Positions 1 through 18,933 of a DNA stretch of 26,963 nucleotides are shown piece after piece. The notes beneath the pieces are model-generated. The model did not search any database. It was not told the DNA's origin and saw only the letters and a list, made by a program, of their open reading frames with translations. Location: positions 1-26,963 of the IMG/VR virus record IMGVR_UViG_3300033148_008873; one strand, written 5' to 3'. The stretch comes from a virus. Made by a program: the position numbers and the translations under genes. How positions within the stretch are numbered: position 1 is the stretch's first letter; every line of letters starts with the position of its first letter.

Positions 1-1173
1 ATATAGATTGGCAAGATGAAGACTAGCAAGCATATTGTTTAAATCAGCATTATTGAATGTGGTGTCTTCACGTTGACCTAGGATACCAATAATTGGCTGA
101 GTCTGATCATTTGTCGCAAATAGCCAAACTGCAACGAAATTCCTATTAGTAGAAATTTCACTGAGTACCCAGTTTGGTGAAACAAATTCATTAAACTGAA
201 TTCGATTAATACCTTCCATCAAAGGGAAAGAATTGACAGTTTTAATTCTCCAAATTGGAACGCTTCCGCTAAGATACCAAATTGGTATCTTAGCTGGTAA
301 TGCAAGATCTTGTTCGAAACGATCTCCACCTATCCCTTGTGTTACCGATATTTCAAGATCTTCATCGTGTATCTCGCCAGTACTGACTTCCACTTGAGCA
401 TGTATATCAAGGTCACCATCACCAGTTATATCGCCAGAAACCGCAAGACCGTGTTCAAACAATGCGCCAACAGTATCATGAAGATATTTATGTGTAGCCC
501 AGTCCATAGCCAAACGGTGTGGTTCCCATGCCACAATTAACGCCTTGGAATTGGTTGCATCCCAATAGATGAATGATACAGGCGCATCGCCTTCGAATTC
601 CCACTCAATTGTGCTGGCCTGTAGAACGCCCACACTGTTGTAATAGAAGAACCAATAACCTTCAGTTATAGTAGCAGAGATGTCTATCACCTCCGTCGTC
701 TTAGTATACTTTACCCCTTGTAACCACACATCGAAAGATGCTCCAGTCGGAGCTATAGTAAGTGTTTTAGCTGCGTCAGACCAAGTTATAGTAATATCGG
801 CTTCTGGATCAGCAAATCCAGTAGGTTCTACCTCAACAGCTGCCGATTCGATAGCACCGCTAACCCAGCTATCTAAGAGGCCATTCGAATCTGCTTTTGG
901 AATCGCATTAGCAGTTGGAGTAGCAATCGCGAAAATAGCAGGTGAAGCTAGCGCAAGACTTTCAGATTTATTCAGATCAACATTATCCAAATTCAATAAT
1001 ACTTGATCGTTAGCAATATAATCTATTAATTCAAAATCTTCCGCAATTTCATATTCAAAATTATAATCAGTCAGAGTTGCTTGTCCAGATGCAGGGATCT
1101 TAGCATCTGGTGCTGACAATCTAGTCAATGATAGATCAGCAACAGTTTGATTCTTTGCTATAATTGTGGCCAT
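1..1173 (-). CDS. Tail-fibre or virion structural protein, 3' part beyond window
   Basis: An uninterrupted reading frame of 391 codons starts at ATG 1173 and runs off the left edge, so its C-terminus is missing. A GGAGG ribosome site lies 8-9 bases upstream of the ATG, inside the last codons of the preceding gene (which ends at 1177), so the two are translationally close. The product begins MATIIAKNQTVADLSLTRL and is rich in small and beta-prone residues (Ala, Thr, Asp, Val), with no signal peptide or membrane segment. Around residues 200-240 it has aromatic-rich stretches (EGYWFFYYN, VSFIYWD) of the sort seen in phage fibre and baseplate-attached proteins. I do not recognise the family. Calling it a fibre or virion component rests on composition and on lying at the end of a run of similar proteins behind a late promoter. 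Confidence 0.6.
   Translation of the reverse strand, partial: MATIIAKNQTVADLSLTRLSAPDAKIPASGQATLTDYNFEYEIAEDFELIDYIANDQVLLNLDNVDLNKSESLALASPAIFAIATPTANAIPKADSNGLLDSWVSGAIESAAVEVEPTGFADPEADITITWSDAAKTLTIAPTGASFDVWLQGVKYTKTTEVIDISATITEGYWFFYYNSVGVLQASTIEWEFEGDAPVSFIYWDATNSKALIVAWEPHRLAMDWATHKYLHDTVGALFEHGLAVSGDITGDGDLDIHAQVEVSTGEIHDEDLEISVTQGIGGDRFEQDLALPAKIPIWYLSGSVPIWRIKTVNSFPLMEGINRIQFNEFVSPNWVLSEISTNRNFVAVWLFATNDQTQPIIGILGQREDTTFNNADLNNMLASLHLANLY
268..294. repeat. Perfect 12-bp inverted repeat inside the partial fibre gene
   Basis: Arms 268-279 and 283-294 are exact reverse complements (gctaagatacca / tggtatcttagc) separated by three bases, whose outer two can also pair. The hairpin is entirely within coding sequence, and neither side has a T-tract, so it does not look like an intrinsic terminator. 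Confidence 0.85.
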
Positions 1174-1176
1174 GTG

Positions 1177-2385
1177 CTAAGCCCTCCATTTTACCTTAAA
1201 CCATCCAGAAACATTAGAAGTAGTATTACCTCCTGCTTGGTTCTTAACCGAAAGGATTGAATTTGCTGAAAAATCGTTATTCTTAGTCGAATCATTTCCA
1301 GATGTTGCTGCCGATATTAGTGTAGACCTGCTAACCCCATCTTCTTCGATTTCAAATGTGGCCGCATCAACATCGCTGCGCGTATACATAATAGCAATAA
1401 TTGTGCCATTATGTGGCATAATATAACCAATATTAGCAGTCATAGTAACGCTACCAATCATATAATAACTACCAACCGCTGTATTACTTATACGGCTAAA
1501 ATGAAATGCATTAGAATCAATAGACAACCATTTACCACGAGCTTCGTCATACTGCATAGCCATATCAATAGTAGTATTATAATATTTGTCGCCATCAGAA
1601 GCGCCGACAGGATCAGTTAGTAACGTACCAAAATCTTGTGGCCCATCAAACGCAGTATCTATAAATATAGTAATCTGATCTAAATTAGAAAAATCAGATC
1701 CTGATCGTATCAATTCAATAACATCAAATAAGAAATATCCAGTTGATTCTACAACATCAAAATATCTGAATACTATCTTAGACCCATAGCTAATTATACT
1801 AATAATACCAAAAGGATCTATATTTCTAAAATATTCAATAAGATCATTATTATCATTATCAATGGGATCTATATTAATCCCAATAATATTACCACTAGTA
1901 TCTGTATCAAATGATAATTGTCCTACACCTGGATCCCCTTCAGTTGGTGAATCGACAAACACATAATTGAATCCGACTGTGCTTTCAGACGCACTAGCAG
2001 TATCTTGTAAGTAAGCTCTCCAACTTCCACCAGTTGTATGAACGAAAATATAATCTCTAGCGTCGTTGATCACCAGATTAGGCCCGACACCATTTATATC
2101 TGTAGTTGCTGTAATAGTTAAATTGTTGATTATGATATCTGAATTTCTTATAGAAACAAAAACTATTCTGCCATCTTGTTCAATATTATTAAGATTTAAT
2201 ACTCTAGCAGCACCAAGAACTCCAGTAGAACATATTGCTATAGGGGTATTGATCTGTAGCGTACCATCTCCAGCGTTGAGCAATGTATCTATGATATCAA
2301 CATTAGCGAGGCCTTGCGCAATATCAAAATGCTCACCAGCAAAACCACCGCTAGCAATGATAGTTTCATAGAAACTCTTAGCCAT
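1177..2385 (-). CDS. Probable fibre/head-decoration structural protein with C-terminal jelly-roll-like domain
   Basis: A 402-residue protein. I chose ATG 2385 rather than the in-frame TTG at 2397, because the GGAG that overlaps that TTG sits six bases before the ATG and is the natural ribosome site. The product is beta-rich, Ile/Asn/Asp-rich and free of membrane segments. Near residues 275-305 it has a DGDKYYNTTID...YDEARGKWLSID stretch. This resembles the 'G-x-x-Y/W-N-T-T...W' segments common in phage fibre proteins. The last ~100 residues (GYIMPHNGTIIAIMYTR...FEIEEDGVS...VSGWFKVKWRA) look like the C1q/BclA-style jelly roll that ends many phage fibres and spikes. It stops at 1177, four bases before the start of the next structural gene. 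Function is inferred from these resemblances and from position, not from a recognised family. Confidence 0.6.
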   Translation of the reverse strand: MAKSFYETIIASGGFAGEHFDIAQGLANVDIIDTLLNAGDGTLQINTPIAICSTGVLGAARVLNLNNIEQDGRIVFVSIRNSDIIINNLTITATTDINGVGPNLVINDARDYIFVHTTGGSWRAYLQDTASASESTVGFNYVFVDSPTEGDPGVGQLSFDTDTSGNIIGINIDPIDNDNNDLIEYFRNIDPFGIISIISYGSKIVFRYFDVVESTGYFLFDVIELIRSGSDFSNLDQITIFIDTAFDGPQDFGTLLTDPVGASDGDKYYNTTIDMAMQYDEARGKWLSIDSNAFHFSRISNTAVGSYYMIGSVTMTANIGYIMPHNGTIIAIMYTRSDVDAATFEIEEDGVSRSTLISAATSGNDSTKNNDFSANSILSVKNQAGGNTTSNVSGWFKVKWRA

Positions 2386-2418
2386 AACCAGCTCCAATTA
2401 ACTTATATTTGGCCTAGA

Positions 2419-3075
2419 TTAGATAATACTACTTACAACGGCTCTACCATCAAAAGCCGGAGCTAATCCAGATTTTCTCAATGTAACATCGCCAGTAATA
2501 ATATTAGTCTCTACTTCAACATCAACCTGCGTAACAATATTGCCACTCTCACTAAAGACTAAAACTTGATAAGGACCAAGATTATCATAATTATGTGGGC
2601 CTATTTGTCCTGGACCAGATGTTCCACTACCAATAATAGTAATTTCATTGGCCGTACCAGCAGCCCAATCAGCAACCACAAAAGTGAAACTTCTTGGTAA
2701 TACGTTAATAGGGACCCATTGATTAGAATCATTGCGCACTAAAATATCACCAGGATCGCCATCTATTCTATTTAGAACATTGTCAACATCCAATAACCAA
2801 TCGATAAATCGCCTGAAATAAGGCCCGAATTCTACTAGCTCAATAAATTCCATATAATGATCTGGAATATCGATCTCAAGATAATTCTCAACAGGATTAT
2901 ATTTAGAAATAAGTTCTACAGTAGTATTATCAGTAGCAGTAATGCGACCAAATGATACATTAATCAAAATATCGTTGGCTTGTACTAAATCCCCAGTTGG
3001 CGGCTTTTGAGAACTGTATTCAGGCCTAGCTTGGAACAATCTAGAATGTGGTATTGGGAAACTAAATGACGGCAT
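2419..3075 (-). CDS. Hypothetical virion-module protein
   Basis: A 218-residue protein beginning MPSFSFPIPHSRLFQARPEY. Its ATG overlaps the TAA of the upstream gene as TAATG (one-base overlap), so it is probably translated by coupling. It is acidic, beta-rich and has no membrane segment. A region around residues 75-100 (EFIELVEFGPYFRRFIDWLL) is probably helical. A segment at about 103-125 (DGDPGDILVRNDSNQWVPIN) resembles the 'GD-L-x-R-N...W-V' linkers of fibre-type proteins, which are often repeated there. I do not recognise a family. Its place in a four-gene run behind a late promoter, directly before two fibre-like proteins, suggests a virion part or attachment/adaptor role. Confidence 0.55.
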   Translation of the reverse strand: MPSFSFPIPHSRLFQARPEYSSQKPPTGDLVQANDILINVSFGRITATDNTTVELISKYNPVENYLEIDIPDHYMEFIELVEFGPYFRRFIDWLLDVDNVLNRIDGDPGDILVRNDSNQWVPINVLPRSFTFVVADWAAGTANEITIIGSGTSGPGQIGPHNYDNLGPYQVLVFSESGNIVTQVDVEVETNIITGDVTLRKSGLAPAFDGRAVVSSII

Positions 3076-3665
3076 TATTCATACTTTGTTAGTGATTGTA
3101 AGAATTTCCTCACTTCTTCTCTAGTAAGCTCAGTTAATTCTCTATCGCCTGGCAAATCAGCTCGCCCTACTTCATTATCGCTTATCTTATCGCTATCTGC
3201 AATAAACAAGGAAGGCTCCGAAATCTTTTGCGTTAAGTGAGGAGGCTTAATATCTTCCATCCCTGCAGCTATATTCTCTACTGTAGTTATATTTTGGCTA
3301 GGCTTATCAATGGGCTGCGACCAATTTATAACAGCACCATAAATACTATTCTGAGCTTTTTGCCACGAAGCACCACCATCCTCCAATTTACTTGGCGGGC
3401 CAACATTCTCAATCACAAAATCTTTAATACACTCTACCAGCTGTTTAGGAATAACAGATGAACGATCCTCGGCATCACCAATATGAATATAATCATCGAA
3501 AATTTTCTGTGCCTTTGGTCTACCTTCATGAATTGTACACAGCACAACTCTGTTTTGTTTAGTTGGTTGCAATGTTAATCCGATTGAATTGAAATCCTCT
3601 TCAAGACAATATAACATTTCAAAGTTAACACATTTGTTAATCTTCTTCAGGACTCCATTAAGCAC
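3075..3665 (-). CDS. Hypothetical protein, first gene behind the late promoter
   Basis: A 196-residue protein beginning MLNGVLKKINKCVNFEMLYC. It uses a GTG start at 3665; an AAAGGGA ribosome site lies about seven bases upstream and no better ATG is available in frame. It is the first gene after the TATAAATA motif at 3690-3697, so it should be expressed late with the virion genes that follow. The first ~120 residues look globular (VVLCTIHEGRPKAQKIFDDY, IHIGDAEDRSS). The C-terminal third is polar and probably disordered until a short helix (ELTREEVRKFLQSLTKYE) at the end. Its stop overlaps the start of the next gene (TAATG). I see no known motif and do not assign a function. Confidence 0.55.
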   Translation of the reverse strand: MLNGVLKKINKCVNFEMLYCLEEDFNSIGLTLQPTKQNRVVLCTIHEGRPKAQKIFDDYIHIGDAEDRSSVIPKQLVECIKDFVIENVGPPSKLEDGGASWQKAQNSIYGAVINWSQPIDKPSQNITTVENIAAGMEDIKPPHLTQKISEPSLFIADSDKISDNEVGRADLPGDRELTELTREEVRKFLQSLTKYE

Positions 3666-3689
3666 AGCAGATTCCCTTTATCAATATAA

Positions 3690-3697
3690 TATTTATA
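3690..3697 (-). promoter_or_regulatory. T4-type late promoter TATAAATA
   Basis: The minus-strand sequence is exactly TATAAATA, the T4 late promoter -10 element read by gp55, which needs no -35 box. It lies in the largest intergenic gap, 24 bases before the GTG of the gene at 3665, so the transcript would have a leader of about 15-20 bases. A gp55-like sigma factor is encoded in this window at 18914-19666, which makes the assignment coherent. The same octamer on the plus strand at 24443-24450 lies inside a gene and is probably chance. Confidence 0.7.
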
Positions 3698-3753
3698 CTT
3701 TATGTTTGATGTTTGATAGGGACAAAAAAATTTCAACTAAGTAGACTTGTACA

Positions 3754-3861
3754 TCAAGTATGATTATGACAATCCTGTGCCCCATTCATCATAATCCCAT
3801 TAAACCCATTTTTTATGGACTCTTCATAAGGACAATTCTCTCTACCAGCATCTAAATTCAA
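3754..3861 (-). CDS. Possible 35-residue mini-ORF or gene remnant in the gap
   Basis: From TTG 3861 to TGA 3754 the minus strand reads MNLDAGRENCPYEESIKNGF followed by a Met/Asn-rich end with a second Cys. The composition looks like a real globular segment rather than noise. However, no convincing ribosome site precedes the TTG, and the frame is closed by a TAA eight codons upstream of the Cys-Pro. A second protein-like stretch in another frame just upstream (ARCLEISNFCYN, ending near 3865) raises the possibility of a small gene broken by a frameshift. Very tentative. Confidence 0.2.
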   Translation of the reverse strand: MNLDAGRENCPYEESIKNGFNGIMMNGAQDCHNHT

Positions 3862-3910
3862 TTGTAACAGAAATTACTAATCTCCAGACACCGTGCCAAA
3901 TCATCAAATG

Positions 3911-4438
3911 CTAACTTCCTTTGGTTCTCTCGTCAATGATCTGCATCAACTTGGCACGTTGACTAGAACTTAATACCTTACTACGCCAGAGACAATTCAT
4001 ATCTCTTATGAATTTTTTCTCCCAATTAGTCATATTATTCTGACTAAGTACTATTGCAACATTTATCAACTCAACATTTGTCAACAATCTTCTAATCAAT
4101 TTCAGAGCACTAATCTTAGGACCTTTACCAAGAAGATAACTAGCACAACGTTTGAGATTAGGTAGTGAGAATTCAATCTGTTTTTGTCCATCAAATTCAT
4201 CAAAATCTAATCTCAAACCAGAAGCTCCCCATGCATCGCCATGAGCTTTTAGATCACCTGTCGATGGTGGAGCAACATCAAGAATTTGGCATATTTCTCT
4301 GCGTAATTCCTTTACGCTAATATGTCCGCCTTCGTCATAATTACCTATAAAATAGGTTGCAATATTGCAAGCCCGTGCCATGCGGCGATTATCACCATCT
4401 TCTGCAACATACTCCGATACCAACATCTTACTAGCCAT
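3911..4438 (-). CDS. Hypothetical protein, 175 residues
   Basis: ATG 4438 is preceded by GAGAGGA at good spacing. The product is soluble and mixed alpha/beta, without signal or membrane segments. Its last ~45 residues contain NWEKKFIRDM...VLSSSQRAKLMQII. This has the pattern W-E-x-x-F ... L-S-x-x-Q-x-x-x-L that I recall at the end of assorted phage replication or recombination proteins; the resemblance is from memory and weak. The gene lies between the HNH-methyltransferase gene and the late promoter, 95 bases after the former, with no clear promoter of its own. I do not assign a function. Confidence 0.6.
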   Translation of the reverse strand: MASKMLVSEYVAEDGDNRRMARACNIATYFIGNYDEGGHISVKELRREICQILDVAPPSTGDLKAHGDAWGASGLRLDFDEFDGQKQIEFSLPNLKRCASYLLGKGPKISALKLIRRLLTNVELINVAIVLSQNNMTNWEKKFIRDMNCLWRSKVLSSSQRAKLMQIIDERTKGS

Positions 4439-4533
4439 AACATCCTCTCTTACTAAATAAGTAGTCTAAAACTAGTAAAATTCAAATACATTAATAAATT
4501 ATAACACCTCCACAAACCACTCATTTGGAGCTT

Positions 4534-6078
4534 TTAGCTAAATATAGCTAAATATTCATCTGATTTCACAGACCCAATTGTATTCTTAGATCCAATCGGA
4601 ATAATTTTATCAGGATTCAATTTCTTTAAAATCTCCTTGTTGACATGGAGCACTCTAAGAGGGATATTTTTTGTCGATTCTAATAATGTTTCAAGATTAA
4701 CTGAAGATTGAGAATCGATATATTCTTCTGATCCAAAAGGCGGCGAAGTAAACATCAATTTATATCTATCTAGAGTAGGTTCTATTACAGCAGAGTTGAA
4801 TTTTAAAATATGCGCACCATCATAATTTATAAAATCAGCCATCTTAATTAATCCTTCCCATGTCAGAAAAGACAATTCAAAAGCATCATATTTTAACTCA
4901 AGCGAAGAGGCGGCTAAAAGCCTGCCTCCCCATCCGGCAAAAGGATCATAAACTATATCGCCACTTTTACACCCAAAATATTGATAAACCGCACGGGCAA
5001 ATCCAGCGTGAATCTGAGAAGGAACACCAATGCCAGCGAAAACAAATTCTCTAACGATCCTTTCAAAGGATATTTTAGTCTGGCCACCAACAAGATTGTT
5101 TAAAGTACGCTCAAAGATCGAATTATTATTTCTGCCCCATATTTTAGAAATAACAGGTTTATTCTGAGTTTTAACTTCCCATAAGTGTGGGTGAAAATGC
5201 CATACTAACTTTTTGCCAGCCCATGGCTTATTTTCAGGTTTGTGGGACCGCCATTTGTCATCTTTCAAATAGTCGCTAAGATTATAATTAACAATTCTAG
5301 AATAGTCATCTTGAAGAAGTTTGTCAGAATATCGGGGAGGTTCAAATTGTTGATTAAAAACTGGTCGCAATTTTTCCTCCTTAAATTTCAATTTTTTGTA
5401 CGATGTGTAAATTTTAGTAGATTCTGGAAATGAAAATTTATCAAAATCCAAAAAATTATATGCCTGATTCCTAATGGCTTCCACAAATTGAATGGCTTTC
5501 TGATTAGAATACTCACGTTTAGCTCTATTTAGCCCACTACAAACAAGTTGGATATTTTCTTCAATATGTCCAAATTTAGAATCGATCCTATCAATTGATA
5601 TAGCAAATAAATCATCTCTTTGGTGAGACATATTCAGACCAGACAGAGCACATTTTCCATCTTGCTGTTTATGCAATTTTATCACAAATTCAAGACCGAT
5701 ATTATGTTCTCTATCAAGTCTTTTATCGCCATTAATTGAATGTTTCAAGCATTTTCTTAACCAAGACTCAACGTTAGCGGTCTCTTTATCAATTTGATAA
5801 TTTTTCTGCCAAGCCCTACGCTCCTCAGCATTGTTGTGATAATATCTATTGTTCTTTTTCTTTACTTTATCTGAATGTCGTTTATAAGATTCTTTTTTTT
5901 GCTTTTTTATCTTGTCGGCGTTATCTTGTCTCCATTTCTTCGATCTTTTGAGTACATATTCTTTATTGTTTTTCCGATATTCTCTAAGGTTATAAGCTTT
6001 GCATTGTTTACATTTACGCCCTATTTTAGGAAATTTTATTAAGTCTTTGGTTTCTTCGCACTGATGACATTTCTTCAT
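4534..6078 (-). CDS. HNH endonuclease-DNA methyltransferase fusion
   Basis: I chose ATG 6078 (MKKCHQCEETK) over an in-frame ATG at 6120 because AGAGGT precedes it at proper spacing; the product is 514 residues. Residues 4-26 form a CxxC...CxxC zinc ribbon. A Lys/Tyr-rich helical stretch runs to about residue 100. Residues ~143-200 are an HNH-type nuclease (CALSG, SIDRIDSKFGHIEENIQLVC, N..K). The usual first His of the motif reads Arg (DR), as I recall for many phage-borne relatives, so activity is uncertain. The C-terminal half is a class I SAM-dependent DNA methyltransferase, with motif I YDPFAGWGGRLLAA (~377-390) and catalytic motif IV TSPPFG (~444-449), of the N6-adenine/N4-cytosine type. 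It stands alone between the capsid terminator and the next gene, which fits a self-inserted cargo or mobile gene. The two functions might act as restriction plus protection, or only for homing or genome modification. Confidence 0.8.
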   Translation of the reverse strand: MKKCHQCEETKDLIKFPKIGRKCKQCKAYNLREYRKNNKEYVLKRSKKWRQDNADKIKKQKKESYKRHSDKVKKKNNRYYHNNAEERRAWQKNYQIDKETANVESWLRKCLKHSINGDKRLDREHNIGLEFVIKLHKQQDGKCALSGLNMSHQRDDLFAISIDRIDSKFGHIEENIQLVCSGLNRAKREYSNQKAIQFVEAIRNQAYNFLDFDKFSFPESTKIYTSYKKLKFKEEKLRPVFNQQFEPPRYSDKLLQDDYSRIVNYNLSDYLKDDKWRSHKPENKPWAGKKLVWHFHPHLWEVKTQNKPVISKIWGRNNNSIFERTLNNLVGGQTKISFERIVREFVFAGIGVPSQIHAGFARAVYQYFGCKSGDIVYDPFAGWGGRLLAASSLELKYDAFELSFLTWEGLIKMADFINYDGAHILKFNSAVIEPTLDRYKLMFTSPPFGSEEYIDSQSSVNLETLLESTKNIPLRVLHVNKEILKKLNPDKIIPIGSKNTIGSVKSDEYLAIFS

Positions 6079-6182
6079 AGTACCTCTTATTAGGCGTGAA
6101 GTTGCCCATTTTAAGTACATTTGATTTAATGCTAATAACTGATTTGTTTTTATTGGGAGTGAAACAACTAGATATAAAAAGA

Positions 6183-6203
6183 AACCCGCCGTTTAGGCGG
6201 GTT
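6183..6203 (-). terminator. Intrinsic terminator after the capsid gene
   Basis: An 8-bp perfect stem (aacccgcc / ggcgggtt) with a five-base loop lies 24 bases past the capsid stop codon. On the minus strand it is followed by TTTCTTTTT, the classic U-tract. It is the clearest GC-rich hairpin in an otherwise AT-rich window and should end the head-gene transcript. The plus-strand side (TTCTTTAAAG) has a much weaker T-run. Confidence 0.9.
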
Positions 6204-6226
6204 CTTTAAAGATTGCTTTTAAAACC

Positions 6227-7321
6227 TTAGAGGTTGCTTACGGTCACGACACCATAGTAAAGCCCACCGTCTTCGATGAGTTTCTTGCCATAACGCGTCA
6301 TGATTCCCTTATTGGGAGTGAAGCTGTTTGGATCTAGCACGGTTGGAGTGCTGAGAAGTGGTATATATGGCGCATAGAAATATCCGCTGTCTAGGACTGA
6401 ACCACCCTTGAAGCCCATTAGGATCTTGCAGTTGGGGAACAGCGGATCCTTATAGAGCTTCAGCTTGCCTTGAACAGTACCGGCAGTAGTAATACCAACA
6501 TCGATACCATCAACTGCTAGGGCATCTGAACCACGGAAGTCGTTCAGTTGCTCGAACTTGGAGCTGATATCAGCAGAGGTTACCATCCAGTTGGCTGGAC
6601 CACGGAGAGTCAACCTGTGGATGACGTTGGCGACTTCAAGGACCTTGTATAGCAACGCAATGTTGCGGTCAGTGAAGTTTACGCTAGCACCTGCGCCAGT
6701 GGCGAAGTTGTGGGTAGCGCGGACTGCTGCTGCGATAATCAAGTCGTTAATGATTTCACGGTCGATTTCTGCGACCATCTCATCAGCCATTAGATCGGTT
6801 AGAGTGGACTCAGCATCGATATTGTGTACTGCCTTGAGATCCTGAGCAGCCTCAAGGCTCCAGGAGGTCTTAAGCTTACGAGTAATAGCTGCGACGCTAT
6901 CACTGTCAATGCTCAAGGTTACTTCTGGCTGGAATGGGTTATTCTCAAGATCGAACTCATAATCGACCCGCGCTATAGTAGTGCTTGCTAGGGCACCAGC
7001 GGATAAAGTTATAGTTACCGATCCAGTTGCATGATCGAACTGAGTTGCACCAGTTGTAGTATCATCAACAACAACACCAGTTGCATCACCAACTAAGATG
7101 AGGTCTGGGTTGCCATCGCTATCGAAACCAACCTGTAGAACCGGCTCTGGATCTTCACAGCTATCGGTATCTTCGTTATAAACGTTGACTACCACTGTGC
7201 CAGCTAGGACTGGACGATGAGCTAGTGTGCCAGTGATGGCAGCGCCGCTGCCGTCAATTGTCAGATCCTCTCCCTTTACTTCTTTACTTCCTGTGAGGAG
7301 TAATATGGATCGAGTGCCCAA
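6227..7321 (-). CDS. 23: Major capsid protein gp23, C-terminal part (frame-shifted)
   Basis: This frame carries about 350 residues of the T4 gp23-family capsid protein. Diagnostic stretches are LKTSWSLEAAQDLKAVHNID and MADEMVAEIDREIINDL in the middle, and YFYAPYIPLL...NSFTPNKGIMTRYGKKL at the C-terminus; all match gp23 order and spacing. The part up to ~130 residues is a Gly/Thr/Val-rich insertion domain typical of divergent gp23 proteins. There is no independent start: the first possible TTG (7321) lies inside the upstream frame and has no ribosome site. It must be the continuation of the frame ending at 7276, reached by a -1 shift. If one copy of the 8-bp repeat at 7275-7290 is removed, the two frames join into 505 residues, close to T4 gp23 (521). 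The terminator at 6183-6203 follows. Confidence 0.9.
   Translation of the reverse strand: MGTRSILLLTGSKEVKGEDLTIDGSGAAITGTLAHRPVLAGTVVVNVYNEDTDSCEDPEPVLQVGFDSDGNPDLILVGDATGVVVDDTTTGATQFDHATGSVTITLSAGALASTTIARVDYEFDLENNPFQPEVTLSIDSDSVAAITRKLKTSWSLEAAQDLKAVHNIDAESTLTDLMADEMVAEIDREIINDLIIAAAVRATHNFATGAGASVNFTDRNIALLYKVLEVANVIHRLTLRGPANWMVTSADISSKFEQLNDFRGSDALAVDGIDVGITTAGTVQGKLKLYKDPLFPNCKILMGFKGGSVLDSGYFYAPYIPLLSTPTVLDPNSFTPNKGIMTRYGKKLIEDGGLYYGVVTVSNL
7275..7290. repeat. 8-bp tandem duplication at the capsid frameshift
   Basis: The octamer tttacttc (GAAGTAAA on the coding strand) occurs twice back to back at 7275-7282 and 7283-7290. The stop codon of the N-terminal capsid frame (7276-7278) lies in the downstream copy. 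Deleting one copy fuses both capsid frames in register with the expected sequence (SSQEVKGEDL). Confidence 0.9.
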
Positions 7322-7752
7322 CCGTTCTGACGTGCGAACTGTTGAGCAGTGTTCTGACGCATAATTTGGGTCCCAGCCAGAGTTTGGCCCTTGCTAAGGG
7401 CGTAACGGTATCTGATATAGAATATCAGAGAAGCCGGCTGGCTCATTGGCTGAACACCAACTAAGTTATCAGCGATAAGCTTTGGATAGGACTTCCTGAT
7501 TAGAGGAAGCGCGAAACGAGTGAAATCGGCGATATCACCAGTTGTGGTCGCATCTTCTAGAAGAAGTGATTTCTTCTTTGGATCCCAGTGGTTATACTGG
7601 TTCTCAAGAATGTGCGCCATAAGTGGGAATTTCCCAGGATGCACCTCGCGGCACTTCTTAAGAACCGGCGACCATCTATTGACCAGTGTATTTTTTCTAC
7701 CTTCGCGCAGCAACATTTGCTGACGATACTCTTCAGTAATCACGTTACTCAT
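7276..7752 (-). CDS. 23: Major capsid protein gp23, N-terminal part
   Basis: ATG 7752 has an AGGAGA ribosome site seven bases upstream. The 158 residues match the N-terminal third of T4 gp23: NTLVNRWSPVLKK, then DATTTGDIADFTRFALPLIR and LIADNLVGVQPMSQPASLIF, where gp23 has its TG-x-IA and LI-x-D-x-x-GVQPM-x-GP-x-LIF segments. The frame ends ...YYSSQEVKK inside the tandem duplication, and the rest of the protein continues in the -1 frame (6227-7321). A probable maturation cleavage by the gp21 protease lies at LLE66/DATT, in the same place as the E65/A66 cut of T4 gp23. The gene follows scaffold gp22 in T4 order. Sequencing error, a mutation fixed in this genome, or programmed -1 frameshifting could all explain the split. 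Confidence 0.9.
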   Translation of the reverse strand: MSNVITEEYRQQMLLREGRKNTLVNRWSPVLKKCREVHPGKFPLMAHILENQYNHWDPKKKSLLLEDATTTGDIADFTRFALPLIRKSYPKLIADNLVGVQPMSQPASLIFYIRYRYALSKGQTLAGTQIMRQNTAQQFARQNGWALDPYYSSQEVKK

Positions 7753-7782
7753 TATTTTCTCCTACTCCAAATGAGTTATATT

Positions 7783-8526
7783 CTAGTCATCCATCCTTGC
7801 TGCGATACCAGCAATTTTGTTATCGCTACCGGTCTTGGATGCACCGCTCTTTTGATTGTCTTCCATAATTGGTCTGGTAGACTTCCCTCTTGCTGGTGCA
7901 CGACGCTTTGAATCCAACCTGCGACGAGTAGATTTCTTCTTACCCTCCGCAATATTGCTAACAGTCTTTGTAGTTTTCGTCTTCTTTGAAGCGACTGGCT
8001 TAGTTTCGCTCAAGGTTACTGCAGCCTTGAGCTTACTCTCTAACAGACGACTAATCTTCAAATGTTTGATAGCAATAGTGTTGGCTTCGTTCGCCTTGCG
8101 AACAGCCAAATCACGTTCCTCTTTCAGGGTGCCTACAGCCCTCTGCAACCTCGTGATTTGTTTACGAGTGACTTGAATCTCCCGATTATTGCTAGGATCG
8201 TCGATATTGATCCCCTCCAAAAGTGCGCGAGTGCGCTTAAGTAAGGAGGTAGCCTCGGTGTCCTCATTTAGTCTCTGCTTTTCAGCTGTACGGTCAATTT
8301 GTTCCTTCTTAGCTTCAAGATATATTCCAACTCTCTTAGCTAGCCGGACCTTCTCCTTATTTAGAAGGTCCTGGGCCACTTTTTGAGCTTTATTCAACTT
8401 TTGATCGAATCTTCTATCATACTCTTCTTTCACCGCTTTGGTGTGAGTACCAATCTCCTCAATGATAGCATCAGCCAACTGTTGGCCGACACCTGCTTGT
8501 TTGAAAAGACTCCTAAGTTTATCCAT
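7783..8526 (-). CDS. 22: Prohead core scaffold protein, gp22-like
   Basis: A 247-residue protein beginning MDKLRSLFKQAGVGQQLADA, with TGGAG before the ATG. About residues 25-170 are almost entirely charged heptad-type helix (EEYDRRFDQKLNKAQKVAQD and on), a long coiled coil. The tail (~175-230) is very basic (KKKSTRRRLDSKRRAPARGK). There is no enzymatic motif. T4 gp22 (269 residues) is the main helical scaffold of the prohead core and is degraded by gp21 during maturation. The length, coiled-coil make-up and place between the protease and capsid genes fit this; sequence identity alone would not prove it. The strongly basic tail is unusual and could contact the very acidic regions of the giant core protein at 9264-12563. 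Confidence 0.8.
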   Translation of the reverse strand: MDKLRSLFKQAGVGQQLADAIIEEIGTHTKAVKEEYDRRFDQKLNKAQKVAQDLLNKEKVRLAKRVGIYLEAKKEQIDRTAEKQRLNEDTEATSLLKRTRALLEGINIDDPSNNREIQVTRKQITRLQRAVGTLKEERDLAVRKANEANTIAIKHLKISRLLESKLKAAVTLSETKPVASKKTKTTKTVSNIAEGKKKSTRRRLDSKRRAPARGKSTRPIMEDNQKSGASKTGSDNKIAGIAARMDD

Positions 8527-8577
8527 TGAAGAACTCCAGAATATCTTTGCTTAAATTATATTCGTTCACACGGATTC

Positions 8578-9264
8578 CTATCGCAACTCCTCTAAGAAAT
8601 TGCGAACTTCTACGATTATCTTCTTATCTCGACCAACCTTCTCACTATGAGACCGGTTTAAAAGCCGATTTTTTGATTCCATCACTGACATATAAGAACC
8701 GTGAACACTAGGCTCTGCTACAATATCGAAAGTAACAAAAGTATATCCAGGCAATACTTTATAATATTCTTCATTCTCGTATATCGCGGTCTCCATATCA
8801 CCAACACCACGAGAAGAGATGCCAACTCTAATTTTGCGCTCTAACAACGCATATAATTGTTTGCCGAGAATCGTATTATCAAGAACCTCAGCCTCACCAA
8901 ATACAGCACCACTGTTATCAATCCAAAGCTTAGTAATAAGGTGAGAGACACGATCAAGATGTATCTTAGCATCAGGAGGATGATCAAATTCACCAAGAAC
9001 ACTGCGAGATTTTATATCCTTCTGGATTTCTTCAACTGCCTGTCGCAACACACCTTCAGGATAAATTCTACCATTGGCATTAGGTCTACCTGATAATTGG
9101 AACTGGCCGCCAATACGCAGAACTGATACTTGATCGCCATGAATATCCTCTGATATAATACGTTCAGAGCGCATAATCTTCAGAGGATATGTATCCTGCA
9201 ATAATGTATGACCACCAAGGTTCCCCGTCCTAGAAACAATTGATCTATTAATAAGATGAAGCAT
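8578..9264 (-). CDS. 21: Prohead protease gp21
   Basis: A 228-residue serine protease of the T4 gp21 family, close to T4's 212 residues. Visible signatures are NANGRIYPEGVL (~62-73), GEFDHPPDAKIHLDRVSHLI (91-110) with the probable catalytic His95, and VGISSRGVG (147-155) with the nucleophile Ser150 or Ser151. It matures the prohead by cutting scaffold and capsid proteins after Leu/Ile-x-Glu sites, and it also processes itself. Its ATG overlaps the stop of the giant core gene (TAATG), and it is followed by the gp22-like scaffold 51 bases on, the T4 order. The last ~30 residues are basic and may be a removable tail. Confidence 0.93.
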   Translation of the reverse strand: MLHLINRSIVSRTGNLGGHTLLQDTYPLKIMRSERIISEDIHGDQVSVLRIGGQFQLSGRPNANGRIYPEGVLRQAVEEIQKDIKSRSVLGEFDHPPDAKIHLDRVSHLITKLWIDNSGAVFGEAEVLDNTILGKQLYALLERKIRVGISSRGVGDMETAIYENEEYYKVLPGYTFVTFDIVAEPSVHGSYMSVMESKNRLLNRSHSEKVGRDKKIIVEVRNFLEELR

Positions 9265-12200
9265 TAGTCTTCAAGCTCTTCTTCCTCGGCTTCACCTTCC
9301 TCGAATGCAGCACCCATAACTTCTTCATCAGCTTCTTCATCAGCTTCGCCCTCTAGACCTTCTAGACCTTCTAGACCTTCAGGCTCTGATTCAGGCATTT
9401 CACCAATATCGGGCATTTCCTCGCCAGTAATATCACCAGGCTCCAACTCCGGAACCTTTCCACCACCAAGACCAGGCAGAATATCTGCTAGAGCTTTAGC
9501 AACTTTATCAGGCTTCCCAGCAATTACTACTATATCCTCATCGGACAAGACTTCAGTATCGCCTAAGCTCCCAGCACCAAAATCATCATCCGTTTCGACT
9601 AAATTAGATGGATCTTGTTGCATATCTTCCATTGGATTTATAGATGAACGCTTGTACCCAATCTTCTTATATGATGGACCCTTATATTGTGCTTCGCTAG
9701 CAGGTTCCTCACAAGTACATTCTTTCTTCTTATTATTGCAATCATTGCATATAATATTCTCGAGGAATTCTGGAGGTACCTTCCCACCACCTTCTTCCTC
9801 CTCATTCATTGCCTGCTTACACAAACACGTCATATCGCACGTGCAATCCTCAGGACATGCCTCCTTACCATGTGGGCATAGCGTTTGTTCCATTAGATCA
9901 ATCAACTCAGCAATATGCTCAGGTGAGAAATCTTCGGCAACACCCTCTTTGCCTTGTAAGATGCCCATATCGCCGCCACCAGAGATCTTCTTGGTACCGC
10001 CATCACTTCCTACTTTACCAGTATCTCCAGGATGATTCCCAGATGGAGTCTCATCAGCTATGCCGTCTTTACCATGCAATTCATCCATACGGATTGATAC
10101 TGCTGTGGGACCGCCAGATGCTTCATAACCCTTTGCTGACTTAGCACCATCACCAGAAACTCCATCAGTATTAGCTATTGATTTTCCAGTTACACTGCCT
10201 TTTCCGCCAGTACCCTGGAAATCCTTACCCATGCTAAGACCAACAGAGCTATATCCGCCCTTAGTTGTAGCCGGATCGCCACCACTTACTGGGATAGCAC
10301 TCTCAGATGAGGTCTCAGAACTACCAACTGATCCCTTGCGACCGTCAGAGGAGTGTAGACCCTTCGATTGTACTCCACCACCACTTTGCATATCATCCAT
10401 ACGCAGTGATCCACCGGCAGATCCTGAAGTAGAGTGATTACCCTTACGACCATCAACAGGCTTCATTCCTTTACCGGCTAATCCAGAACCACGCTGCTTG
10501 GCCTGGTATCCACCTGCCTCGCCTCCAGCACTACGACCATCAGATTTCTGTGTGCTCTTTCCAGCAATACCACTGCCCTGTAGATCATCCATGCGAAGTG
10601 GATCAGTTGCAGGATCAGATATTCCTGATGGCACACGTGCAGAACCATATGGTTTTTCAGCTTCTATAATGGATTGATAATAATCACGATCAAGTTTGCT
10701 TTCGGATACCTTTCTACCAATAAAGTCTGGATCTCTTTCAGGATCGTTATTATTATCACTGTGTAGGATCTTGTTAGGACCATTTAAAGCCACAGTAAGA
10801 CTATTCAGGTACGGATCGTTATCCATATCTTCTAGCAATTCATGGCCATTAGTATCAAACATGCGCTGACGCATATTCTCAAAATGTTCACGAATTATAT
10901 TAGTACTTGGACCAAGCTTCATGCACTGCTTGACATAATTATTTAGTTGCTTAGTACACTTATCATACCCAAATTTGTTTAGATATAACTCACCATTTAA
11001 GCGCCAATTTTCAACATGTTCTAGCAGACCAGTTAGATTCATATCGCTAATCTTCTTACTGCGACCTGGGTGTTCGGCATCAGCTGCTAATGGAAGTTCC
11101 TCGCCTGGACCAGGTGGCATTGGCGGCATTCCGCCTTCTTCCTCGCCTTCCTCACCTGGCGGCATTCCGCCTTCTTCCTCCTCCTCTTCTTCGCCAACTT
11201 CTACCATCGGGAACAATTGGCTACCTTCTTCCTCCTCTTCACCAGACGAACCTTCCTCACCAGGTTCGCGATCAAATCCTTCCAAGCTCTGAATATTATC
11301 GATCAGAGAATCACTAATATTGGCCAGTAATTCTTCAGCCTGAAGAATAGCATCTGTATCAGCCTCAGCACCACTTAGACGCTCAATTAGTTCATTTAAT
11401 TCATCAACTGATGCAGTGGTTTCCTCATCATCATCTTCAAGCTCAGGAATGACACCAGCAATAACCTTCAGACATGTTCTGTAAGCCTTCGCTCTAGCCT
11501 GTTGTATATCTAGTTCCTCATTGAAGACGATATTTAAGAACTCATTGTGGTCATCTTCGAAATTCTTAGATTCTGATAGAATATTGATATTAGTGAGAAG
11601 AGAAGCGTTCTGGGCTTTCTGCGCAGCCTTAGTCCAAGATTCTACGATAGCATGACGATTGACAGCGAGATTAGTCCTAAATATTACATTTGTAATATCT
11701 TTCGACAAGAATGAATTGAATTCCCCTTGTGAAGCTAATGTATTCTCAACCAAATAGCGCATGCCATTTCTGGTTAACAGGCAGAATTCTTGCTCTTCGC
11801 GCAAGAATTTTGCTGCAGTATTACAAGATTCTTTGACATTTCCCTCGCACATCAAAGAGCCGATTCTTAATACAAATTTTTTGAATGCATCTGATTTATA
11901 AGCTTGTTCAGCAATAGATCTCATCTTGTGTGCCACCAGACGACGTCTAGTATATTCATTGATTGGTATTATAAATTTCTGAGTACCGTCGGATAATGTT
12001 CCACGAACAATTCTGCCGCGATCCATTTCAACATTATCGCGTACTGATTCAGTAAACAGTTTAACTATATTGTCGATATGATTATCAGAAACAATTCTAT
12101 TAGAAGCTCTGACACGTCGAGCTATACCATCTTTAAGTGTAATCCATCCACTTTCCGGTATTACTTTGGATTGGTATCTCTGGCCTTCTATTTTAGTAAA

Positions 12201-12563
12201 TACGCGATCGGCTTGTTTCAGATTGCCACCACAGATAGCTTCCACGAGATCTCGACAATTCTTGTTGAATTGATTTGATTTCTCTTCCTCGATTATCTGA
12301 ATTTGACGAATATTATCAACATCAACTCTACCTCTATTAGCCTTCTTCACATCAGCAAGATAATAGGTGTTTTTGTCGACATCTTCAAACATGATGCTTG
12401 TAGCATCTAAAGAAGCAAGACGTAAGTTTTTGCCAACTTGCGCGCCCATACGTTCGACCGCCTCTTCAAAGAATCGTAATTTGGATGCGGCTCCATTATT
12501 GATATAACGGACAAATTTGCGCGCGTCCATAATAACTGTTGGTTTACTCTGAGCAGTGCCCAT
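9264..12563 (-). CDS. Giant acidic, repeat-rich head-core protein
   Basis: I chose ATG 12563 (MGTAQSKP), which has GAGGAG seven bases upstream, over an in-frame TTG at 12578; the product is 1099 residues. Regions by approximate residue: 1-425 helical, globular; 430-500 Glu-rich with GGMPP blocks; 500-640 globular; 655-880 Gly/Ser-rich with about six degenerate repeats of RMDDLQ-G-GIAGK-SDGR type; 893-958 with ten Cys in two clusters (CPHGKEAC-PEDC-TC-DMTC-LC and CNDC...ECTC); 1010-1099 extremely acidic, ending EEGEAEEEELED. It occupies the place of T4 genes 67 and 68 (core proteins of 80 and 141 residues; gp67 is very acidic), between portal and protease. I infer a prohead-core component, perhaps cleaved by gp21. 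The repeats and cysteines are not known to me in that role. No enzymatic motif is seen. Confidence 0.75.
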   Translation of the reverse strand: MGTAQSKPTVIMDARKFVRYINNGAASKLRFFEEAVERMGAQVGKNLRLASLDATSIMFEDVDKNTYYLADVKKANRGRVDVDNIRQIQIIEEEKSNQFNKNCRDLVEAICGGNLKQADRVFTKIEGQRYQSKVIPESGWITLKDGIARRVRASNRIVSDNHIDNIVKLFTESVRDNVEMDRGRIVRGTLSDGTQKFIIPINEYTRRRLVAHKMRSIAEQAYKSDAFKKFVLRIGSLMCEGNVKESCNTAAKFLREEQEFCLLTRNGMRYLVENTLASQGEFNSFLSKDITNVIFRTNLAVNRHAIVESWTKAAQKAQNASLLTNINILSESKNFEDDHNEFLNIVFNEELDIQQARAKAYRTCLKVIAGVIPELEDDDEETTASVDELNELIERLSGAEADTDAILQAEELLANISDSLIDNIQSLEGFDREPGEEGSSGEEEEEGSQLFPMVEVGEEEEEEEGGMPPGEEGEEEGGMPPMPPGPGEELPLAADAEHPGRSKKISDMNLTGLLEHVENWRLNGELYLNKFGYDKCTKQLNNYVKQCMKLGPSTNIIREHFENMRQRMFDTNGHELLEDMDNDPYLNSLTVALNGPNKILHSDNNNDPERDPDFIGRKVSESKLDRDYYQSIIEAEKPYGSARVPSGISDPATDPLRMDDLQGSGIAGKSTQKSDGRSAGGEAGGYQAKQRGSGLAGKGMKPVDGRKGNHSTSGSAGGSLRMDDMQSGGGVQSKGLHSSDGRKGSVGSSETSSESAIPVSGGDPATTKGGYSSVGLSMGKDFQGTGGKGSVTGKSIANTDGVSGDGAKSAKGYEASGGPTAVSIRMDELHGKDGIADETPSGNHPGDTGKVGSDGGTKKISGGGDMGILQGKEGVAEDFSPEHIAELIDLMEQTLCPHGKEACPEDCTCDMTCLCKQAMNEEEEGGGKVPPEFLENIICNDCNNKKKECTCEEPASEAQYKGPSYKKIGYKRSSINPMEDMQQDPSNLVETDDDFGAGSLGDTEVLSDEDIVVIAGKPDKVAKALADILPGLGGGKVPELEPGDITGEEMPDIGEMPESEPEGLEGLEGLEGEADEEADEEVMGAAFEEGEAEEEELED
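9352..9378 (-). repeat. Three exact 9-bp repeats in the acidic tail of the core gene
   Basis: The unit tctagacct is repeated three times in tandem and encodes Glu-Gly-Leu triplets (GLEGLEGLEG). The unit is a multiple of three, so copy number can change without breaking the frame. Confidence 0.85.
11781..11816. repeat. 9-bp stem (13 with a bulge) hairpin inside the core gene
   Basis: Arms aattcttgc (11785-11793) and gcaagaatt (11801-11809) are exact reverse complements around a seven-base loop. Outside them gcag (11781-11784) and ctgc (11813-11816) can pair, leaving a three-base bulge. It lies entirely within coding sequence. Confidence 0.7.
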
Positions 12564-12602
12564 GCGATGACTCCTCAATTATGTTATTTTTGTCAAGAAA
12601 TT

Positions 12603-14546: not shown

Positions 14547-17513
14547 CTAATTCCTAAAGTACCTTAGAATATGTTTCTTAAACGAAACTATATCTTGCGT
14601 AGCGGCCCTTGGTATTTTATCTTTAGTGATGGGGATACCACCAAGTTGGGTTGTAAATTTAGCTAGCTCAGCTTCCTTGCTTGGTTTCCCGCTATAAACT
14701 TCAGAAGAGACATTGAACGGTGCTAACACATTGCGTCCACCTATTACAGCCATTTTTTCTATTTTATCCCTTATAGCGGCTTGGTCCAACAGTTCTGGAC
14801 TAACCTCCATACTATGTACAGGTATAAGATTTGAATTTCCACGATAAATAGCATCTTCTATCCCAACCAATGCTAATGCAATAGCTAATACAAGGTCATC
14901 AGAATTACCAACTCCATCCTCATTGCCATATCTGCTCTTCCCAAGATGCACGAAAATACATAACTCATGATATAACCTTGATGATTTAATATGATAACCA
15001 TCCTCTCCAAGTTCATCTTGCAAATGCTTGATCAAAATATTCTTGCTCTGATGAGAAGTTGGATAACCTATCTGGTTATATTTAATTTTTAGAGCAGCCG
15101 TCACCCTCTTATGACGATATAAATTGGGATATGCTAATTTGTGATCTAATTCTTGGCATACTGATTGCCCTATTCCGGTACGCTCACACACTACAAATGC
15201 TCGATTATACCATCTACCAATAAAATCGATCATCTTTGCAAAAATTTCTGGCAGTGCCTTGATCCTTAATTCAGCTACTTGTTCATGAGCATCAACATCA
15301 AGCACCTGAACAGCACAATAATCACTAGCCTCGCCAGAAGATGGATCAGCTCCTATAACGTACATGTGCGGTCTTCTATCACTAATTAATATATCTTCTG
15401 GATTAGTAGTCTTAGCAACACGACGTACCGATTTATCGGTAAATGGAGGTTTCCATATTATTAATTGTTCCCGGAAATCCAACAATTCACGCTCCATAGT
15501 AGAAGGATTAACATAATCGGTAATTCCAACTACTTTAGGAATTAATTTCTTTTCTTTTACAGCCTGCTCAGTCTCCCTAATCGTTTCGCCTATAGCCAAT
15601 AGAGCAGTACGTCCAAGCACAGTATTGCCAGTACCAAGAAATTCAGCTAATATTTCCTGTCTAAACTTTTTATCAGATCCTTTAGTCGTAAGTTGGCGAT
15701 ATTGATCTTCTAACCACGGACTCCAATATGGTCCATATTTTTCTTTTTCTTTTTCTGTTCTACAATCTTTAATATTATCCAATGGTGAAATTCTAGTAGT
15801 ATTGTTACTCAGTTCATCAACAAATTCTATAGTCCAATCCATATCCCACCAATTAATATCGATGGGGTTAAAATCATTATCACCATTAATAGCGTCAGAC
15901 CACGTTCTCCAATACCAATTACCTATGCCATTGGTAGTTGATATCACGACAACGCTACCACCAGTTTGTATAACAGACCATCCGCCTGCCCACATTGCAT
16001 CCATGTGCTGCATAAATGCAGACTCATCGATAATTATTAATGAGCCAGAGTTGGATCTTAGAGTATCAGGGCTGGATGTCAGACTTTTAATCCCCGATCC
16101 ATTAATAAACAATAATTCATGTTCATTCCGTTTCTCTACTCGCCAAAGCTCTTTCATCCATTCAGGTAAATGATCATATATGAATTTTACATTTCTGCTA
16201 AGGAATTCCATTGCATCATCATCGCGTTTGGACACTATGAGTATACTCTTTTGAGAGAAGAACATGCTATACCATAAAGCATAAACTCCAGTCAATGTGC
16301 TCGCACCACAATTGTGTACTACAGCCCCGTCAACTATATAATTGTTGTATGGCGGAACCGATAAATCAAAAACTTGATATTCATCTTCGATTAATTTGAT
16401 TGATTTTATTTCACCTTTCGCTCTATTGAAGAAAAAACCTTTTGTTAATTCTTTCCTAGGTTTTTTTCCAAAAATGTCGATATTTTTTACGAATTTTTCA
16501 AAATCGTTGCTCCCATATATCCGCAATTTTGCTATTGAATTTGTTGAAGATTTATATATCTTACAAGAAATTTGGAATCTGGACAACAACTGTTTTATTT
16601 GATGTAAAACAAATTCTGATTGTTGTCCTATTCCGACTTCATTGCAATGGTCACCACTATACCAACCATCTCCTGCAAATATTCTATTCAGCAATAATGC
16701 TATCGATCGATTATCCCATTTGAAAACTTCATCTGGAATTTTTTTATCGGTGCCGGTTGCTCCACGCAATCCATATTTCTCAAGCCAGTTCTGGGAATCT
16801 ACAAATGATGAAGAAATCCGATAATTTTTGTTAGAATCAGGCTTGAAACCACTCTTAACCTTTTTTATCCGCAATCTCTTACCGAATCTTAATTCATAAT
16901 GTTTCTGAAATTCAAGTAAATATTTCCATCTAGAATTAGCAAAATAAAGGTTATTCTGATTACATCCACCATCCGTCAAGAGATATCCAAGCAAGATCGG
17001 ATCCGATGGATGATCAGGTTTAACACCATATCTCATGGGTTCATATATTTCAATTAGATTATCATTACAAGTAATGTCGCCAGCATCTATATAGCCCCTA
17101 TTGGTCAAAAATCTATGGCTTAAAGTACAAATTGATCTATGACCAGTTTTTGATCTCACTTCACAACAATCATTAGAGACACCATTATTAAAAACGCGCT
17201 CTACAGTCGATATTACAACCATTTTATTGTTATCAATTGAATATATCTTATCGCCAGGTTGTAAACTTTCTATAGATCTAGGACCAATTGGAGTCCACAC
17301 TGTGGTACCTTCTATAAAACACTGTCTGCACTTTTTGAAAATGTTAAATCTATGATTCCTAAATTCAGTCAGCGATTTTTGTTGATAACTGAATAGATTA
17401 AATGGAATAATCCCTTTTTTTGGATGTTTAACCTTGCAGAAATTATTGACAAAAAATGCGGGATCTCCCTGGCAACGCTTGATTAATCGAAGAAGCGCAT
17501 TTTTGTTAGGCAT
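14547..17513 (-). CDS. 17: Terminase large subunit gp17 with intein
   Basis: A 988-residue precursor. Residues 65-401 are an intein, so the spliced protein is 651 residues (T4 gp17: 610). Splicing joins KKCRQ to CGASTL, rebuilding the P-loop of the packaging ATPase, of the R-Q-x-G-x-S/T terminase type. Walker B with catalytic Glu is SLIIIDESAF (D496, E497) and the coupling motif is VISTTNG (~524-530). The C-terminal RNase H-like nuclease shows VIGADPSSGEASDY (D723), VVCERTG (E777) and NSDDLVLAIAL (D872/D873), equivalent to the T4 D401/E458/D542 set. It cuts concatemeric DNA and drives it through the portal, whose gene follows after three bases. The start has only a poor ribosome site, so translation may depend on coupling to the gene upstream. 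Confidence 0.95.
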   Translation of the reverse strand: MPNKNALLRLIKRCQGDPAFFVNNFCKVKHPKKGIIPFNLFSYQQKSLTEFRNHRFNIFKKCRQCFIEGTTVWTPIGPRSIESLQPGDKIYSIDNNKMVVISTVERVFNNGVSNDCCEVRSKTGHRSICTLSHRFLTNRGYIDAGDITCNDNLIEIYEPMRYGVKPDHPSDPILLGYLLTDGGCNQNNLYFANSRWKYLLEFQKHYELRFGKRLRIKKVKSGFKPDSNKNYRISSSFVDSQNWLEKYGLRGATGTDKKIPDEVFKWDNRSIALLLNRIFAGDGWYSGDHCNEVGIGQQSEFVLHQIKQLLSRFQISCKIYKSSTNSIAKLRIYGSNDFEKFVKNIDIFGKKPRKELTKGFFFNRAKGEIKSIKLIEDEYQVFDLSVPPYNNYIVDGAVVHNCGASTLTGVYALWYSMFFSQKSILIVSKRDDDAMEFLSRNVKFIYDHLPEWMKELWRVEKRNEHELLFINGSGIKSLTSSPDTLRSNSGSLIIIDESAFMQHMDAMWAGGWSVIQTGGSVVVISTTNGIGNWYWRTWSDAINGDNDFNPIDINWWDMDWTIEFVDELSNNTTRISPLDNIKDCRTEKEKEKYGPYWSPWLEDQYRQLTTKGSDKKFRQEILAEFLGTGNTVLGRTALLAIGETIRETEQAVKEKKLIPKVVGITDYVNPSTMERELLDFREQLIIWKPPFTDKSVRRVAKTTNPEDILISDRRPHMYVIGADPSSGEASDYCAVQVLDVDAHEQVAELRIKALPEIFAKMIDFIGRWYNRAFVVCERTGIGQSVCQELDHKLAYPNLYRHKRVTAALKIKYNQIGYPTSHQSKNILIKHLQDELGEDGYHIKSSRLYHELCIFVHLGKSRYGNEDGVGNSDDLVLAIALALVGIEDAIYRGNSNLIPVHSMEVSPELLDQAAIRDKIEKMAVIGGRNVLAPFNVSSEVYSGKPSKEAELAKFTTQLGGIPITKDKIPRAATQDIVSFKKHILRYFRN
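16311..17321 (-). mobile_element. LAGLIDADG intein in the terminase P-loop
   Basis: A 337-residue in-frame insertion starting at Cys65 (CFIEGTTVWTPIGPRSIESL, block A) and ending VVHN401 before Cys402 (+1 nucleophile). Block B is GHRSICTLSHRF. The homing endonuclease domain has two LAGLIDADG-type helices, LLGYLLTDGG (~174-183) and LLNRIFAGDGW (~274-284). Block F is YQVFDLSVPPYNNYIVDGAV. All splicing residues appear present: Cys1, block B T-x-x-H (TLSH), penultimate His, terminal Asn and Cys+1. It should therefore be a full, splicing-competent and possibly mobile intein. Insertion in the P-loop, between Gln and Cys of KKCRQ/CGAST, is a known preference of inteins in phage terminases. Confidence 0.95.
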
Positions 17514-17534: not shown

Positions 17535-18152
17535 TTATTCTGGTGCATCTTCCATAGACTCAGCAGCGTCCAACAATAAAGTAAGATCACTAAGATCTGG
17601 TCCAGCATTTTGATTTAGATTATTTATCATAATGCTATTATTCTTAGAAGCAGCCATAAATCTGGTTATAGAATCAAGCAATTTTATTGGTGTTAACGCA
17701 ATTTCATTCTTAGCTCTGATCACATCAGGAAGTTTTTCAACGTAAACACGCGGAATCTTACCACCATTACCAATTATGTCGAAAAAATGTTTTATTGCGC
17801 TTTGAGCTTGAATTCTATCAGTTCTATAATTGCACATAATTTCTTCAGTAATATCATTTATACGGCTTATAGCTCCCTTAAATTGGGATATTAATTCGTT
17901 GCCAATATCATCAACATCAACATCAACATCAACATCAACATCAACATCAACAGACTCATGTGACGGAATTTTTTGCGTTGGAATTGCTTCAACGCTAGTG
18001 GCTAATTCTGACTGTGGTATACTTATAGTTCCATCAGAATTCTTTTTCTTGTTTGCCTGTTTGAAATTAGGTTTTGGGATTTCGCCAACATCGCTTAATT
18101 TATCTATAATATTTTTCAATTCATCGTCATGTTCAGACAAGAGGAAGCCCAT
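17535..18152 (-). CDS. 16: Probable terminase small subunit (gp16-like)
   Basis: About 205 residues. The start is uncertain: ATG 18152 is given, while TTG 18170 and a TTG near 18140 are possible and none has a good ribosome site. All overlap the 3' end of the upstream gene, suggesting coupled translation. The N-terminus (DELKNIIDKLSDVGEIPKPN) is acidic, then a disordered linker contains a (Val-Asp)7 run. The helical core (RIQAQSAIKHFFDIIGNGG ... RVYVEKLPDVIRAKNEI...LLDSITRFM) resembles in pattern the central helical hairpin of T4 gp16 (164 residues). The tail is acidic. Position immediately before gp17 is where gp16 sits in T4, which is the main support. gp16 binds DNA as a ring and stimulates the gp17 ATPase. 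Confidence 0.6.
   Translation of the reverse strand: MGFLLSEHDDELKNIIDKLSDVGEIPKPNFKQANKKKNSDGTISIPQSELATSVEAIPTQKIPSHESVDVDVDVDVDVDVDDIGNELISQFKGAISRINDITEEIMCNYRTDRIQAQSAIKHFFDIIGNGGKIPRVYVEKLPDVIRAKNEIALTPIKLLDSITRFMAASKNNSIMINNLNQNAGPDLSDLTLLLDAAESMEDAPE
17911..17952 (-). repeat. Hexanucleotide microsatellite, seven copies
   Basis: The unit tcaaca (TGTTGA on the coding strand) is repeated seven times without error and encodes alternating Val-Asp in the linker of the gp16-like protein. Copy changes keep the frame, so linker length could vary by two residues per unit. Confidence 0.95.
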
Positions 18153-18933
18153 CCCTAAGCAGATTTTCAATAAGATGAGTCTTATCTTCTATTTTGCTAG
18201 TTAGGTGTTTATCAAGAATATTACAAGCGCAATAAATTAAATCGAAATTGGATACTTCCCTGCCTTCCATAGCCATTTGTCGCAATTGTCGCAAACTGAT
18301 TAGAATCTCGTAATCATGCTTCATATTGTCCAAGAATTCTTCAGTTATAGTATTGTTACGAATATGTTTCAAGAATTGATAACATTCGCTCTTTGGTTTT
18401 TCTTTTTCCGGTTTTGGTTCTCTGCTTTTAACAGATGTACTTTGTCCAATCCTACCAGCCATTTTTCTTTCAGGTTGTACAGGCCGGCGCTTAGTCTTTT
18501 TGCGCTGACGATTACGTTTTTGTCTACTCATAGTCAAAGGCCTTTCTACCTGCGTTAATTGTCTCTGAACAGGATCGCCGCCCTTTCCCATTATTTGGAT
18601 GCTTTCCATCTTCTCTTTAGATTGATCTACTTTAGCTTTAAAAACTTTGTTTTCCTCGTGTTTACTAGTGTCCTCTATAGTTGCAGGAATCATTATTAAT
18701 TCCCTCAAAATAGAATCATCATAAGATCCAGTAACTTTAAAAGCTTGCTCCTCCCCAACAGTCTGTTTAGTAGAAAAGACCACAGCATCGGCAACAGCAG
18801 GATTATCTAAATTTCTAAGTATTCCAGCATCACATATAGCCAAATGTCCGCTAGTAGTCTTAACTATCTTCTCAAAATCTTCAGGTTCTTCACCAGGCTC
18901 GAGATTAGGATGCTCAGTCGTCATCTGGTTCAT
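18133..18933 (-). CDS. Hypothetical protein with basic central region
   Basis: A 266-residue protein starting MNQMTTEHPNLEPGEEPEDF. ATG 18933 is given; ATG 18924 (Met4) is equally possible, and no clear ribosome site decides. It overlaps the sigma-factor gene by 20 bases and the gp16-like gene by about 20, so the three are probably one translational unit. Residues ~1-115 are mixed and acidic. Residues ~130-185 are strongly basic and probably disordered (RQKRNRQRKKTKRRPVQPER). Residues ~185-266 look like a small helical domain (CYQFLKHIRNNTITEEFLDN ... LLRDGLPLV). The basic tract suggests nucleic-acid or RNA polymerase contact, perhaps with the adjacent sigma factor or terminase, but that is inference. 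I do not recognise a family. Confidence 0.6.
   Translation of the reverse strand: MNQMTTEHPNLEPGEEPEDFEKIVKTTSGHLAICDAGILRNLDNPAVADAVVFSTKQTVGEEQAFKVTGSYDDSILRELIMIPATIEDTSKHEENKVFKAKVDQSKEKMESIQIMGKGGDPVQRQLTQVERPLTMSRQKRNRQRKKTKRRPVQPERKMAGRIGQSTSVKSREPKPEKEKPKSECYQFLKHIRNNTITEEFLDNMKHDYEILISLRQLRQMAMEGREVSNFDLIYCACNILDKHLTSKIEDKTHLIENLLRDGLPLV

Follow-up and report, generated by a model that had tools for sequence, protein, structure and literature searches.

A gp23-like capsid gene split at an 8-bp tandem duplication, probably an error private to one metagenomic phage contig

The window, i.e., the whole stretch of DNA that was analysed, is the 26,963-base IMG/VR virus record IMGVR_UViG_3300033148_008873 (positions 1-26,963). 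The main genes lie on the minus strand; among them, as judged by Pfam and PHROG matches, are homologues of T4-like baseplate wedge, ribonucleotide reductase, helicase, terminase, portal, prohead protease, and gp23 proteins. The gene order fits the gp23 family, with Peptidase_S77, portal, and terminase matches upstream of the capsid gene on the same strand. A blastn search of INPHARED phage records found no DNA-level relative, and no RNA families or tRNAs were found in the window. The capsid gene itself is in two frames, and the features at this locus are as follows.

7276..7752, minus strand: first piece of a gp23-like major capsid gene, 158 codons followed by a premature TAA; Pfam Gp23 3e-14, PHROG 138
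6227..7321, minus strand: remainder of gp23 in the -1 frame, 364 aa from a nominal TTG, the gp23 part starting at the octamer; Pfam Gp23 3e-62
7275..7290, minus strand: tandem duplication GAAGTAAA GAAGTAAA, present as a single copy in three conspecific contigs
7238..7252, minus strand: 6-bp hairpin with a 3-nt loop (GGCAGC-GGC-GCTGCC), beginning 23 nt past the stop

The gp23 start at 7752 is preceded by GGAGTAGGAG, and the first frame runs from there to a stop at 7278-7276, giving a product that ends in YYSSQEVKK. On the minus strand the junction reads CAG GAA GTA AAG AAG TAA AGG, and the two frames diverge at CAG GAAGTAAA GAAGTAAA GGGAG, where perfect octamers occupy 7290-7283 and 7282-7275. 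The first-pass annotation had described gp23 as lying in two frames, with the first stop inside a perfect octamer duplication, and the minus-strand sequence, the coordinates, and the translations all confirm this. The gp23 family profile is matched along both pieces, with the first covering positions 1-56 of Pfam Gp23 (PF07068; 3e-14) and the second positions 83-347 (3e-62). The locus thus resembles T4-like gp23 (PF07068; PHROG 138) in that both pieces match in order, and differs from it by the interruption by an extra octamer, which is seen in the window contig only. A perfect period-8 duplication is expected by chance about 0.5 times anywhere in a sequence of such size and composition, so its presence is by itself unremarkable. 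What makes it an event is that three conspecific contigs are without it.

These sister contigs were found by a protein-based scan of IMG/VR, in which their gp23 pieces were identical to those of the window, and the whole contigs were then aligned to the window. All three (L166, L167, and L168, from metagenomes 3300033149, 3300033153, and 3300033154) represent the same phage, with ~99.7-99.9% identity, and each has a single octamer and an intact gp23 in one continuous frame. The 505-residue length that the first-pass annotation had predicted upon removal of one octamer is therefore seen directly in these contigs. L167 aligns to window positions 1-8277, and the 8-bp duplication is the sole difference over 8,277 bp. 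In L166, which aligns to 4678-9661, six substitutions accompany the 8-bp difference. L168 aligns in two segments, 1-8952 and 9024-10885, and besides the 8 bp it shows six substitutions and a deletion that is not shared. Since three copies of the phage lack the duplication, one octamer is its normal state. Scanning IMG/VR for the exact single-octamer junction returned the three sister contigs only, and scanning for the double octamer returned three contigs, none among the gp23 loci; either scan may miss records very close to the window.

The deletion in L168 is private, in-frame, and 72 bp long; it takes 24 residues out of the prohead protease (window positions 8953-9024; around 15368 in L168) and shows that private indels do occur in this contig set. 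The missing segment is present in the window and in L166, and the residues encoded by it include GEFDHP, which we take to be a conserved motif of that protease family. Other near-identical contig pairs differ mostly by indels of 1-3 bases and display no octamer duplication, indicating that an error of this kind is not frequent.

More distant gp23 genes give the same picture as the sister contigs. When related genes were compared for the same duplication, as the first-pass annotation had put forward, 153 of 154 gp23-matching loci crossed the junction in one frame with no stop, the remaining locus ending at a contig edge. The conspecific contigs are counted in this set and some contigs occur in it twice, so that fewer independent phages are represented. 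Not one of the site-spanning relatives shows the break. QxVKGE or close variants are kept at the junction in these relatives, and none of those listed shows a three-residue insertion there.

The second octamer is missing from all three conspecific contigs, and every relative that spans the site has gp23 in a single frame. We consider it probable, from these sequence comparisons, that the extra octamer is an error restricted to this contig and due to assembly or sequencing. It would have arisen in assembly, in contig joining, or from erroneous reads, and the real phage would carry one GAAGTAAA and produce a gp23-like capsid protein of the ordinary kind, 505 residues long and uninterrupted. This reading is favored because the three sister contigs each have one octamer and encode gp23 intact at 505 residues, because 153 of 154 loci are unbroken, because only one base of homology is shared by the ends of the duplicated unit, and because a private indel is also found in L168. 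We therefore infer that the duplication originated in assembly or sequencing rather than in a real molecule. A literature search for documented short tandem duplications created by assemblers gave nothing usable, and a specific assembler fault was not identified. The first-pass annotation had listed an assembly error, a private duplication, and a used -1 frameshift as options. Its interpretation stands in part: absence from three near-identical contigs and the lack of any broken site-spanning relative fit an error or a private duplication and go against the frameshift.

It is unlikely, although not negligibly so, that the duplication is instead a real and recent 8-bp event in some of the phage genomes of the sample, which would have inactivated gp23. 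Short tandem duplications are known to arise by mutation, and the sequence is otherwise identical to that of the sister contigs, as a very recent single event would give. However, genomes with a real duplication would be dead or would be propagated only via intact genomes in the same cell, and the duplicated form would have to be the one assembled in the sample despite a broken essential gene, while it is missing from all three sister contigs. Replication slippage, which the first-pass annotation had named as the possible source of such a mutation, fares poorly as the specific mechanism. The period-8 run across the duplication is 17 nt, meaning that the ends of the duplicated unit have just a single base in common, and a slipping polymerase would therefore have little to pair with.

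We also weighed whether the duplication could be real and gp23 made by -1 frameshifting at A_AAG, yielding a protein three residues longer (EVKEVKGEDL), and find this very improbable. A_AAG is among the tetranucleotides recognised for -1 shifts (PMC5009743), it is in the right frame with the stop close behind, and frameshifted phage capsid genes are known, namely those of the T3 major coat protein and Listeria phage PSA (PMC5009743). The present locus resembles these in having a frame change within a capsid gene and a known -1 slip sequence. In T3 and PSA, however, the shift extends part of the capsid protein, with T3 making two products from one gene (PMC5009743), whereas here no functional molecule would be made without it, and the conspecific contigs have no need of it. 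The single-frame gp23 of the sister contigs needs no shift, and the split arrangement is not conserved, with all 153 site-spanning loci, the sisters included, being in one frame there and the listed relatives lacking the extra three residues. A slippery sequence, GTA_AAG, does lie between the frames, although the NNA_AAG motif is commonplace (49 occurrences in the 8,199 codons of the window's genes). The 6-bp GC hairpin noted in the first-pass annotation exists as claimed, but at 23 nt past the stop it does not provide a stimulatory RNA structure shortly downstream, and its folding z-score of -0.30 is no better than that of shuffled sequence. Among the loci, this hairpin occurs only in contigs of this phage, including the copies with a single octamer, i.e., whether a shift is needed or not. 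Conservation, motif frequency, and folding all speak against programmed frameshifting, which was rejected. Separate translation of two capsid pieces, the second from an internal codon, has a probability close to nil. The second frame is open from the TTG at 7321, but no ribosome-binding site is evident there, the next in-frame candidate starts (GTG 7195 and TTG 6916) are both inside gp23, and relatives have one continuous gene. A split gene with an internal restart was rejected since a plausible start site was not found for the second piece.

With an error private to this contig as the preferred reading, the split is most likely neither part of the biology of this phage nor a new way of reading genes. 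The locus serves only as a caution: when an essential phage gene seems to be split in a single metagenomic contig, conspecific contigs should be compared before recoding is proposed.

Several other features of the window were recorded. The minus-strand ORF at 4534-6120 (528 aa), which directly follows gp23, has matches to phage endonuclease VII and HNH endonuclease families and may be a free-standing homing endonuclease adjoining the capsid gene. In the terminase large subunit gene (14547-17513, minus strand, 988 aa), an intein that includes a LAGLIDADG endonuclease domain lies close to the N-terminus, with matches to Intein_splicing at residues 86-401 (1.5e-11) and to LAGLIDADG_3 at residues 272-345 (4e-12). 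Between the protease and portal genes, a minus-strand ORF of 1104 aa (9264-12578) has no match in PHROGs and nothing above threshold in Pfam, where one sub-threshold match was obtained. Finally, a perfect CATCAA repeat spans 44 bases (17909-17952, about seven copies) within the ORF at 17535-18170, and shorter perfect tandem repeats with periods of 9, 12, and 18 are found near 9352, 9320, and 13111.
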